NCBI GenBank assembly: GCA_036504445.1
Contig: DASXVE010000003.1
Coordinates: 1 to 48,861, forward strand
From: Candidatus Aquicultor sp.
Lineage (GTDB): Bacteria; Actinomycetota; Aquicultoria; Aquicultorales; Aquicultoraceae
Direction: 5' to 3'
DNA length: 48,861 nt
Shown: piece after piece, positions 16,421 to 37,286 of the stretch
Numbering within the stretch: the stretch's first letter is position 1
Layout: each line of letters opens with the position of its first letter
Notes under the pieces: model-generated
Told to the model about the DNA's origin: nothing
Database searches by the model: none
What the model saw: only the letters and a program-made list of their open reading frames with translations
Program-made: the position numbers and the translations under genes

Positions 16421-16657
16421 ATGGTAGACTCGGTAAAGGTGTACTCGACGCCTACCTGAGCGTTTTGCACAATGCTCAAGAGGTATCTTGATGAAAGAGG
16501 CGTAAAGTACGAAGAGATCGATTTAGCGGCCGATCCGGAAAAGGTAAGCGAGCTCGTGGAAGTATCAGGACAGCTTGGAGTGCCTGTGACGGTCATCAAC
16601 CGCCAAGTGATTGTCGGATTCGATCGCGGTAGCATAGACTCGGCGCTTGCGGCGTAA
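16421..16657 (+). CDS. Selenocysteine-containing glutaredoxin-like protein (UGA at codon 13)
   Basis: Reading from ATG 16421 through TGA at 16457-16459 gives a 78-residue protein: VKVYSTPT-U-AFC at about 5-16, then LDERGVKYEEIDL, GVPVTVINRQVIVGFDR. This is the small YruB/NrdH-like glutaredoxin family, whose motif is normally STPTCxxC; here the first cysteine is UGA. Without readthrough only the fragment from 16472 would be left, lacking the active site and any good SD. AAAGGA precedes 16421 at good spacing. A hairpin with GGUA loop follows UGA by 22 nt, as a bacterial SECIS would. UGA is an ordinary stop elsewhere in the window, for example in the next gene. Thioredoxin reductase follows after 19 nt and is the probable electron donor. 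Confidence 0.88.
16476..16491 (+). promoter_or_regulatory. Candidate SECIS hairpin of the glutaredoxin gene
   Basis: TCAAGA (16476-16481), loop GGTA, TCTTGA (16486-16491). The loop G lies 22 nt past the UGA, within the usual 16-37 nt window, and the loop starts GGU as in the E. coli fdhF element. Confidence 0.7.
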
Positions 16658-34431: not shown

Positions 34432-34893
34432 TTGACGCAAGGCAGGAATAGTAACAAGAGATGGATTAGTATACTTGTATGTATGCTCGTTCTGGCTCTC
34501 ACGGCGTTTGTGGTAGCTGGCTGCTCTGGAGGCGGCTCGGAGAAGGGCACACAGAACGAAGGAGTTAAGAGCGAGTCGAACACAACAGCAGAAAAAGCAG
34601 GAGCCGGAGGAGAAAAAAGCCCGATCTCGGAGCAAGAGAAAGCACAGGAATCGAGCGTACGCGATGTAAAAGATCCGCAGCAGCTCTTTATCGATAATTG
34701 CGGCCCGTGCCACGGCCACGACGGCACCGGTCTGGTTGGCCCGTCTATTAAGGCAACCGATTTATCGACCGTGCAAGTCAAGGATGTAACCGACAACGGA
34801 AAGGGTAGCGGCATGCCGAAGTTTAAAGGCGGCGAGCTCTCTGACGACCAGATTGCTGCAATTGCGCAATATGTAAAAGATAAGCTGAAATAA
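34432..34893 (+). CDS. Lipoprotein c-type cytochrome
   Basis: Membrane-tethered mono-heme cytochrome c of 153 residues. A lipoprotein signal ends in the lipobox VVAGC (Cys near 31). A Ser/Glu/Lys-rich linker follows to about 80, then a class I cytochrome domain with heme site CGPCH (near 90-94) and the axial Met in GSGMPKF (near 125). It would carry electrons outside the membrane, plausibly in a chain with menaquinone. Start is TTG after GGGAGGGAG. A terminator follows at 34967. Confidence 0.9.
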   Translation: MTQGRNSNKRWISILVCMLVLALTAFVVAGCSGGGSEKGTQNEGVKSESNTTAEKAGAGGEKSPISEQEKAQESSVRDVKDPQQLFIDNCGPCHGHDGTGLVGPSIKATDLSTVQVKDVTDNGKGSGMPKFKGGELSDDQIAAIAQYVKDKLK

Positions 34894-35657: not shown

Positions 35658-35686
35658 TTGACATTAATACCCCCTAGGGGTATAAA
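35658..35686 (+). promoter_or_regulatory. Thioredoxin promoter with CsoR/CstR-type operator
   Basis: Perfect TTGACA (35658-35663), 17-nt spacer and TATAAA (35681-35686). ATACCCCCTAGGGGTAT (35667-35683) is an inverted repeat with 7-bp arms covering the spacer and the -10. GC-rich arms ending in ATA/TAT are typical operators of CsoR-family repressors, and such a regulator is encoded 1.3 kb downstream. Confidence 0.78.
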
Positions 35687-35707: not shown

Positions 35708-36037
35708 TTGATTATGGCTTCAGAAAAAATCACCAACATAAGCGATGCAGAGTTCGATGCCGAGGTATTGAAGGCCGATAAACCCGTCATCGTCGATTTC
35801 TGGGCTCCCTGGTGCGGCCCTTGTAAACTAGTTGCACCAAGGCTTGAGGAAATCGCGGATGAGTATGATGGCAAGCTAAAGGTTATTAAGGTAAATGTCG
35901 ATGATAATCAAGAGTGGGCTGGTAAGCTCGGTGTTATGAGCATACCGACGCTACTTTTTTTCAAAGACGGGGATGTTGCGGGTAAAATTGTTGGCGCAGT
36001 TCCAAAAGAAGAAATTATAAAACGCTTTGGATTATAA
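35708..36037 (+). CDS. trxA: Thioredoxin
   Basis: Standard cytoplasmic thioredoxin, 109 residues: VDFWAPWCGPCKLVAP with the WCGPC site at about 34-38, the cis-Pro in SIPTLLFF near 78, and no signal peptide. TTG 35708 has AAGGAG 7 nt upstream; ATG 35714 two codons later is the other choice. It lies behind a promoter overlapped by a CsoR/CstR-type operator, so it may be induced by sulfur or metal stress. The cysteine site contrasts with the UGA-encoded paralogue 700 nt downstream. Confidence 0.93.
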   Translation: MIMASEKITNISDAEFDAEVLKADKPVIVDFWAPWCGPCKLVAPRLEEIADEYDGKLKVIKVNVDDNQEWAGKLGVMSIPTLLFFKDGDVAGKIVGAVPKEEIIKRFGL

Positions 36038-36080: not shown

Positions 36081-36284
36081 ATGCCAACATACCAGTTTAT
36101 ATGTGAGAGCTGTGGCAAAGACTTCGAGTTCTTCCTCACACGAATGTTGCGTGATGAAGATAAAATTTGCCCTAGCTGTGGTAGCAGCAAAATAAAGCGC
36201 GCATACCGGGACTTCTTGGGATTTGCAGGCTCGAAAAGCAACAGTTGCGGCAACACCGGATGTGGTACCGGCAGCTTTGGTTGA
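36081..36284 (+). CDS. FmdB-family zinc ribbon protein
   Basis: Small 67-residue protein starting MPTYQFICESCGKDFEFF, followed by CPSCGSSKIKR, the CxxC pair of the FmdB regulatory domain. A Cys/Gly/Ser-rich tail (SCGNTGCGTGSFG) ends it, common in the family. The exact role is unknown. GGAGGA precedes ATG. It is 43 nt behind the thioredoxin and ends at a terminator. Confidence 0.88.
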   Translation: MPTYQFICESCGKDFEFFLTRMLRDEDKICPSCGSSKIKRAYRDFLGFAGSKSNSCGNTGCGTGSFG

Positions 36285-36326
36285 GGATAAATAATACAGG
36301 CTGGAAGCCTGAATAAGGAACAGGAA

Positions 36327-36360
36327 TTAGGCCCTCTGTTTAAGGGGGCCTAATCTTTCT
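36327..36360 (+). terminator. Terminator after the FmdB-type gene
   Basis: TTAGGCCC (36327-36334) pairs with GGGCCTAA (36346-36353), followed by TCTTTCTT. Confidence 0.85.
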
Positions 36361-36373
36361 TCCGGGGATACGA

Positions 36374-36397: not shown

Positions 36398-36486
36398 TAC
36401 GTCAAATAGTTGTTATCGTCTATCATGGTATACTAGAGTCAGCAAAGATTTGAATGATCTATTGCTGCACGTGAAAGGAGTACAGT

Positions 36487-36975
36487 ATGCCGGAACCAAG
36501 AGTTTCGCTTAAAATACTAGGAATTTTTGCCTGTATCGTACTAATCGTATCACTCTCGATAGGATGCCGGAGCAGCAACCGGGTACAAACAAGCCAACCT
36601 CAGACACAAGATCAAGCACAAACTCAACCTCAAACGCAGCCCGGAGCCGTACAACAAAATCAGGGCACAAGCGTTTCATCAAGCGAAGTGAGCGGCCCGA
36701 AAGTGCTGTACTTTGGGGCACAATGGTGACCGACCTGTAAGGAAACAAAACCGCTGGTCGAGCAGGTTAAAAGAGAGTATAATAATAAGATACCGGTTGT
36801 TATGTATGACGTTGATGATACGGCAGGTTCACAGATGGCCGACAAGTACGGTGTTGGGGGATTACCGACGACAGTGTTCATCGGTAAAGATGAAAAAACT
36901 GTCAGTCGCTTAGAGGGAGCTGTAACTAAGGAGATTATGGTTAAGGGCATTAACCAGGCCCTAGGAAATAACTAG
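36487..36975 (+). CDS. Selenocysteine-containing thioredoxin-like lipoprotein (UGA at codon 81)
   Basis: Reading through TGA at 36727-36729 gives one 162-residue protein. An N-terminal lipoprotein signal ends in LSIGC (Cys near 27), then a Gln/Pro/Thr-rich linker, then a thioredoxin domain: VLYFGAQW-U-PTCKETKPLV near 73-91, PVVMYDVDD near 100, and the cis-Pro in GVGGLPTTVFIG. The usual site is WCxxC; UGA stands at the first Cys, with the second kept. Both halves are in one frame, with no other start for the second half. A hairpin with loop GGUCG lies 26 nt past the UGA. AAAGGAG precedes ATG. The protein would act outside the membrane. A CsoR-family regulator gene follows after 20 nt. Confidence 0.88.
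36749..36768 (+). promoter_or_regulatory. Candidate SECIS hairpin of the thioredoxin lipoprotein gene
   Basis: AACC-GCT (36749-36755) pairs with AGC-(A)-GGTT (36761-36768) around the loop GGTCG. The loop begins 26 nt past the UGA and starts GGUC like the E. coli fdhF SECIS loop. Confidence 0.7.
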
Positions 36976-36995: not shown

Positions 36996-37286
36996 ATGGT
37001 TGCAATGTATGACCGCGACGGAGAATCCAAACGAGTGATAACTCGACTGAAGCGGCTCGAAGGCCAGCTGAGAGGCCTACAGCGTTTGGTCGAAATGGGT
37101 GAAGACTGCGAGAGCATTCTTACCCAGTTTGCTGCGGCAAAAGGAGCGTTCCAGAGAGTTGGAGAGCTTATTTTGGCCAGCGTAATTCGCAACTGTGTCG
37201 AAAAGGAAACAGCCGACAAATCGCCGAGCGAAAGCATAGAGTCGGCTATTGCCCTTTTCGAGCAATATGTGAGGCATTTGCAGTAA
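36996..37286 (+). CDS. CsoR-family repressor with CstR-like (Cys-x-Cys) ligand set
   Basis: Small all-helical repressor of 96 residues in the CsoR/RcnR/FrmR/CstR family: ITRLKRLEGQLRGLQRLVE near 15-33, then DCESILTQFAAAKGAF, then LASVIRNCVE. The two Cys are 29 residues apart as in CsoR, but the Cu-ligand His, expected 4 residues before the second Cys, is Val. Two Cys without that His is the pattern of CstR, which senses persulfides. It follows the selenocysteine thioredoxin by 20 nt and likely controls it and the trxA promoter, both with CCCTAGGG sites. GAGGAG precedes ATG. Confidence 0.87.
   Translation: MVAMYDRDGESKRVITRLKRLEGQLRGLQRLVEMGEDCESILTQFAAAKGAFQRVGELILASVIRNCVEKETADKSPSESIESAIALFEQYVRHLQ

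Follow-up and report, generated by a model that had tools for sequence, protein, structure and literature searches.

A thioredoxin-like gene in a 48,861-nt stretch of DNA from Candidatus Aquicultor sp. (the whole analysed stretch, hereafter the window) carries a UGA codon at the position of its first active-site cysteine. The question is whether this codon encodes selenocysteine (Sec) in an exported protein and, as extracytoplasmic Sec is costly because it must stay reduced there, from where such a residue would be supplied with electrons.

Decoding of the in-frame UGA

A preliminary description of the locus had placed the UGA at the first Cys of a thioredoxin WCxxC site, with the frame running on through the domain; coordinates, frame and a Pfam match across the TGA all agree with this. 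The features concerned are:

36487..36975, + strand: Sec-thioredoxin gene (signal/anchor helix, lipobox SIGC, Q/S-rich linker, thioredoxin domain at residues 70–160)
36727..36729, + strand: in-frame UGA for Sec at residue 81, the catalytic Cys1 position; UGA in 10/10 gene-holding family genomes
36749..36768, + strand: SECIS hairpin AACCGCU-GGUCG-AGC(A)GGUU, loop at 36756–36760, supported by covariation
16424..16654, + strand: glutaredoxin, the window's other selenoprotein gene (YSTPT-U-AFC, UGA at 16457; PF00462, E=1.4e-18)

The Sec-thioredoxin gene comprises 162 codons, from the ATG at 36487 (with AAAGGAG upstream) to a TAG ending at 36975, and TGA is codon 81. Translation around this codon (...LYFGAQW-U-PTCKETKPLVEQ..., reading ...FGAQW-U-PTCKETKP...) yields the active site WUPTC; with Cys put at the TGA, Pfam Thioredoxin (PF00085) spans residues 69–156 (E=3.4e-15) and ranks over PF13098, so that the UGA occupies the catalytic Cys1 position within a thioredoxin domain. 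The gene was found in 10 of the 11 family genomes (the assembly without it is 77% complete), each time with TGA and never with Cys. The Trp before the UGA is dropped in some family members (YUPSC, TUPSC), with the UGA kept in all. Codons past the UGA show dN/dS values of 0.09–0.34 (eight pairs) and, by this measure, are under purifying selection. Because TGA occupies the site in all 10 gene-holding genomes and selection of this strength follows it, the UGA is not a product of chance, and the same recurrence removes the possibility, raised previously, that resequencing would return TGC or TGT at 36727. Homologues at class level carry UGA in four genomes (G011, G016, G023, G031) and Cys in G020 (WCGAC), which together with many other Cys homologues places Cys opposite the UGA. 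Outside the class, rhodanese-thioredoxin fusions carrying WUPTC occur in G155 (L036) and G185 (L034); both are membrane-anchored, and their SECIS hairpin is GC-rich and unbulged. The window's own genome also encodes a second exported Sec thioredoxin (contig C24, L048:5736-6383, − strand), in which a signal peptide and TPR-like repeats precede WUPSC.

The preliminary description would have been overturned by a genome devoid of selenocysteine machinery, and this does not apply: tRNA-SeC (anticodon tca, 76.6 bits), SelA (615 bits), SelB (400 bits) and SelD (374 bits) are all present, clustered on contig C25. The selD gene there (L064), adjoining selA, selB and tRNA-Sec, also contains a UGA in frame, close to its start (SSKSG-U-AAKMGPG). 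SelB scored above cut-off in 9/10 gene-holding family genomes (G001–G006, G008, G009 and the window's own) and was not found above cut-off in G007 or G010 of the family, nor in G023 of the same class. Sec-thioredoxin genes are present in G007 and G023, and the missing SelB of these two is likely a matter of draft-genome gaps. The preliminary description had also hinted at another UGA gene, which we identify as the glutaredoxin (TGA at 16457); it scores above cut-off for the NCBIfam Uxx_star subfamily and slightly under that of the YruB family, and single-sequence folding displays a hairpin downstream.

The hairpin with a GGUCG loop proposed 26 nt past the UGA does exist (−5.8 kcal/mol as an isolated 20-mer), but the minimum free energy structure of the 52-nt segment is another fold (z=−0.8, not significant), for which reason single-sequence folding was dropped as proof of a SECIS and the evidence is comparative. 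Across 16 Sec genes, SECIS covariation reached 0.479 compared to 0.011–0.146 in slid-partner controls (0/500 shuffles), and compensatory changes at columns 24–41 (counted from the U of UGA) keep the shape while the letters vary. The three upper pairs occur as GC, UA, CG or UG; as CG, GC, AU or GU; and as UA, CG or UG, and in G004 a one-base shift gives a 6-nt loop and no bulge with pairing still perfect. As in bacterial SECIS elements, the hairpin stands soon after the UGA and has a G in its apical loop, which is xGUxx in every case. Since letter conservation here is partly protein-driven (Pro CCN, Val GTN), the case rests on the covarying pairs. These pairs were not found at the matching positions of ten neighbouring Cys TrxA genes (0/3 upper pairs in nine, 1/3 in the tenth), nor was pairing kept in the Cys homologues of G019 and G020 (1/3 upper pairs) vs 3/3 in Sec homologues. 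The comparison with Cys homologues that had been called for thus separates the two groups, the hairpin forming in Sec homologues but in neither the paralogues nor the homologues with Cys. The SECIS of E. coli fdhF has a bulged U on its 5′ side; the likeness to fdhF claimed previously holds for the loop and fails for the bulge, which in the Sec-thioredoxin hairpin is a 3′-side A.

Two other readings of the codon were weighed. If the UGA were a true stop, the product would be an 80-residue truncated lipoprotein and the downstream frame a pseudogene or sequencing error; about 13% of this genome's long ORFs (19/146) do end in UGA, but a one-codon UGA kept in 10 genomes, the low dN/dS and intact thioredoxin domain past it, the SECIS covariation and the Sec machinery make this very improbable. 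Genome-wide reassignment of UGA to Cys, Trp or Gly, suggested by several genes with in-frame UGA, can be set aside, because UGA ending those 19 ORFs indicates the standard genetic code and rules out a genome-wide change, the in-frame UGAs of thioredoxin, glutaredoxin and SelD fall at redox-active Cys positions, and the tRNA with anticodon UCA is tRNA-Sec. On sequence evidence, we consider it confirmed that this anaerobic Candidatus Aquicultor-group bacterium decodes UGA 36727 as Sec in a thioredoxin predicted to be membrane-tethered.

Export, fold and known relatives

The N-terminus is predicted to form a helix (residues 7–25) followed by a loose lipobox, SIGC, with Ser at −3 (residues 24–27; Cys27 at 36565–36567). 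A lipobox stands at the aligned place in 9/10 family genomes (AAGC, VIGC, IIGC, VVGC, VAGC and LAGC in relatives), and in G007 the helix is kept with the lipobox Cys missing. Both features support the earlier proposal that the Sec-thioredoxin is exported as a lipoprotein, and we infer lipid attachment. Structure prediction gave a disordered linker (residues 28–64) and a confident domain (residues 70–160, pLDDT about 95), for which Foldseek ranked classical thioredoxins first (TM-score by target 0.7–0.8). Among curated family models, the protein scored 40.4 bits for ResA (cut-off 170), far under the cut-off for DsbE and 21 bits for TsoB (cut-off 805), and SaoT and HUIPC matches were absent (NCBIfam).

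Selenoprotein thioredoxins of the UxxC type (PF00085) are among characterised selenoproteins and form an established family (PMC13188914). The Sec-thioredoxin shares with them the classical fold, Sec at the first CxxC position and a SECIS right after the UGA, and differs in its extracytoplasmic anchoring, long linker, Sec-only lineage and CstR-like regulated block. Also known are a predicted PF13098 ‘thiol:disulfide interchange protein’ and TlpA/Thioredoxin_8-like selenoproteins (PMC13188914, PMC9312934), which have in common with it a UxxC (or UGC) thioredoxin fold and, for some, probable export, while belonging to different subfamilies. Neither the anchored Sec-thioredoxin subfamily nor the predicted regulon was found in the literature searched (Haft and Tolstoy 2025 lay outside it), and the anchored form and its regulon appear new among Sec thioredoxins.

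A CstR-like regulator, TrxA and CcdA

The operon, its regulator, a link to CcdA and a second UGA gene directly upstream all go beyond the preliminary description. The gene order in the family is cytochrome c, flavin reductase (7/10), TrxA, FmdB, Sec-Trx and a CsoR-type regulator, often behind CbiMNQO (the G009 contig stops within Sec-Trx). The relevant features of the window are:

35658..35686, + strand: TrxA promoter TTGACA-17-TATAAA, with the palindrome TACCCCCTAGGGGTA (35668–35682) in the spacer; same position in 10/10 family genomes
35714..36037, + strand: cytosolic-type thioredoxin TrxA (WCGPC); TIGR01068 124.8 bits, above cut-off
36429..36434, + strand: −10-like TATACT of a putative separate Sec-Trx promoter; a TATACT-like box lies about 60–100 nt upstream in relatives
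36996..37286, + strand: CsoR-family repressor, CstR-like (PF02583; best PDB matches 7mq3/7mq1)

Alignment of the regulator shows Cys38 and Cys67 kept and the Cu-binding His (Cys67-4) replaced by Val63, a missing ligand that rules out Cu(I) sensing. Of its two best PDB matches, 7mq3 is CstR from S. pneumoniae, a member of the branch that senses persulfides (PMC8879271). The regulator is thus predicted to be a thiol/persulfide-type sensor, although it could instead respond to another thiol oxidant. The sites bound by CsoR-family proteins are commonly pseudo-palindromes containing 4 or more G or C; in M. tuberculosis the site overlaps −10 and −35 (PMC10318464). The operator-like palindrome TACCCCCTAGGGGTA is unique within the window (0.02 expected) and has its sole exact match in the genome here; a palindrome stands at the TrxA promoter in each of ten genomes, with differing C/G tracts. 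Thermus TTHA1953, a two-Cys CsoR relative (C39, C68), represses the thioredoxin SoxW more than 100-fold (PMC10318464). Our system shares with CstR and TTHA1953 a Cys pair 29 residues apart, the loss of the Cu-binding His and a G/C-tract palindrome with TAC/GTA ends (PMC8879271, PMC10318464); their targets are rhodanese/persulfide dioxygenase or Sox genes, whereas the targets predicted here are TrxA, the Sec-Trx block and CcdA.

The TATACT box is preceded by a terminator-like hairpin with a T-rich tract (about 36328–36361), and Sec-Trx and the regulator seem to be transcribed from their own promoter behind it. No conserved operator was found at that promoter among the relatives compared. A candidate CsoR site in front of Sec-Trx (ATGCCCTAGGGTGGTAT, about 36376) was dropped, as it is not kept in relatives.

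Elsewhere in the genome, one other site lies within 2 mismatches of TACCCCCTAGGGGTA, directly upstream of the sole DsbD_TM/CcdA gene. This element, TACCGGTAGGGGGTA, is letter-identical in all 9 CcdA genes with a readable start (flanks 58–67% identical) and sits 18 nt before the start codon (28 in the window's own genome); it is absent from a second CcdA type that some relatives have behind a TlpA-like gene. Because it matches the TrxA operator imperfectly, overlaps the ribosome-binding region and belongs to a class of 2-mismatch matches of which a few may occur by chance at this genome size, its weight lies in position and conservation, and a translational role may be its alternative explanation. 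From these sites we infer one regulon comprising TrxA as donor, CcdA as relay and the Sec-thioredoxin as acceptor, which suggests that a regulated chain carries electrons out of the cell, with the Sec-thioredoxin as its last member. The genome has, in CcdA or DsbD, the relay expected for ResA/TlpA-type proteins. On contig C29 (L197:1250-5763), multiheme cytochrome genes lie beside ccdA, whose start follows the operator-like element.

ResA/TlpA/CcsX and SoxW are CcdA-dependent extracytoplasmic thioredoxins. Like the Sec-thioredoxin, they face outward from the membrane to which they are tied and come from genomes with a CcdA gene; they differ in having Cys where it has Sec. The protein might accordingly help to mature cytochrome c or to reduce disulfides in general, in a ResA/CcsX-like role and with the neighbouring cytochrome c as client, instead of defending against reactive sulfur. 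The cytochrome c gene (34432–34893) is conserved in the block of all 10 genomes, CcdA is a known partner of ResA-type proteins and the cytochrome genes adjoining ccdA fit as well, but the low ResA and DsbE scores, the classical thioredoxin fold and a CstR-like protein as the block's sole regulator count against this role, which we regard as possible but rather unlikely.

For the regulated chain from TrxA through CcdA to the Sec-thioredoxin, the following mechanism is proposed. Sequence evidence supports the first steps: SelB with Sec-tRNA decodes UGA 36727, aided by the hairpin 20–40 nt downstream, and the product combines an anchor/lipobox at its N-terminus with a flexible linker and a thioredoxin domain of classical fold bearing U81 and C84. 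In the proposed later steps, the U81 selenolate would attack an extracytoplasmic substrate at a disulfide (or persulfide/polysulfide), C84 would resolve the mixed selenenyl-sulfide, and cytosolic TrxA would re-reduce the Sec-thioredoxin via the membrane protein CcdA. The CstR-like repressor may keep the TrxA promoter shut, and probably also the leader of ccdA, until its Cys pair is oxidised or persulfidated, by which donor, relay and selenium acceptor would be co-made under thiol or reactive-sulfur stress. We hold this explanation as a whole, anchoring, relay and CstR-like control included, to be probable. Since donor, relay and sensor can be identified for this conserved, membrane-tied and UGA-only thioredoxin, how an exported selenol stays reduced becomes a testable question.

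The FmdB-type gene, a candidate second selenoprotein

Directly upstream of the Sec-thioredoxin gene lies a short frame (36081–36281, under the length limit of the ORF list) that also ends in UGA:

36081..36290, + strand: FmdB-type Zn-ribbon ORF, tail CGTGSFG-UGA(36282)-GGA-TAA; candidate C-terminal selenoprotein
36297..36311, + strand: candidate FmdB SECIS CAGGCT-GGA-AGCCTG, loop 18 nt after the UGA; hairpin in 10/10 relatives

Its product scores above both FmdB-family cut-offs (TIGR02605 / PF09723, 47.7 bits over 31.3 and 51.5 over 34.4). The gene ends in UGA in all ten genomes, compared to 13–20% of genes generally, and in relatives the UGA is followed by GGA TAA, GGA TTT TAG, GGA TTC TAA/TAG, GGG TTT TAG or GGA GGA TAG. 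A hairpin of 6–10 bp with a GGN (or CGGGA) loop stands 17–23 nt past the UGA in each of the ten, vs 4/169 ordinary genes and 0/20 UGA-ended ones; four of its pairs have changed on both sides, and it is not the terminator, for which a distinct T-tract element stands further on. Among relatives the tail did not occur in a Cys version, which is the candidate's main weakness; further FmdB relatives have Cys/His-rich tails or read into unrelated frames. On balance we favour, with some reserve, an undescribed selenoprotein with Sec in its C-terminal tail. An FmdB-family selenoprotein from an ocean metagenome has a CxxU motif in which Sec aligns with a conserved Cys (PMC2398784); it shares the FmdB-type zinc ribbon with Sec, whereas the protein of this block retains all four Cys of the ribbon and would carry Sec in its tail (U-G-stop or U-G-F-stop). 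An Asgard ‘FmdB’ considered as a relative is unrelated, being formylmethanofuran dehydrogenase B.

Taken with the regulated block, the gene raises the prospect that Aquicultoraceae have a thiol export line based on selenium, in which one CstR-like sensor governs TrxA, CcdA and the Sec-Trx lipoprotein, with FmdB as a second selenoprotein in the block; we see the arguments for and against this fuller picture as evenly balanced. The gene further suggests another selenoprotein family, with Sec one or two codons before the gene end, hidden because ordinary annotation takes a near-terminal Sec UGA as a normal stop. The candidate redox tail, ending Cys..Gly-Phe-x-Sec-Gly, recurs in other Actinomycetota lineages as GFGUG, GFSUG, SGFGUGL and SGFSUAG, followed by hairpins with CGUGN, AGGUC or AGUU loops. 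Similar tails were noted at L161, L164, L246, L249, L251-L253 and L256, from several Actinomycetota.
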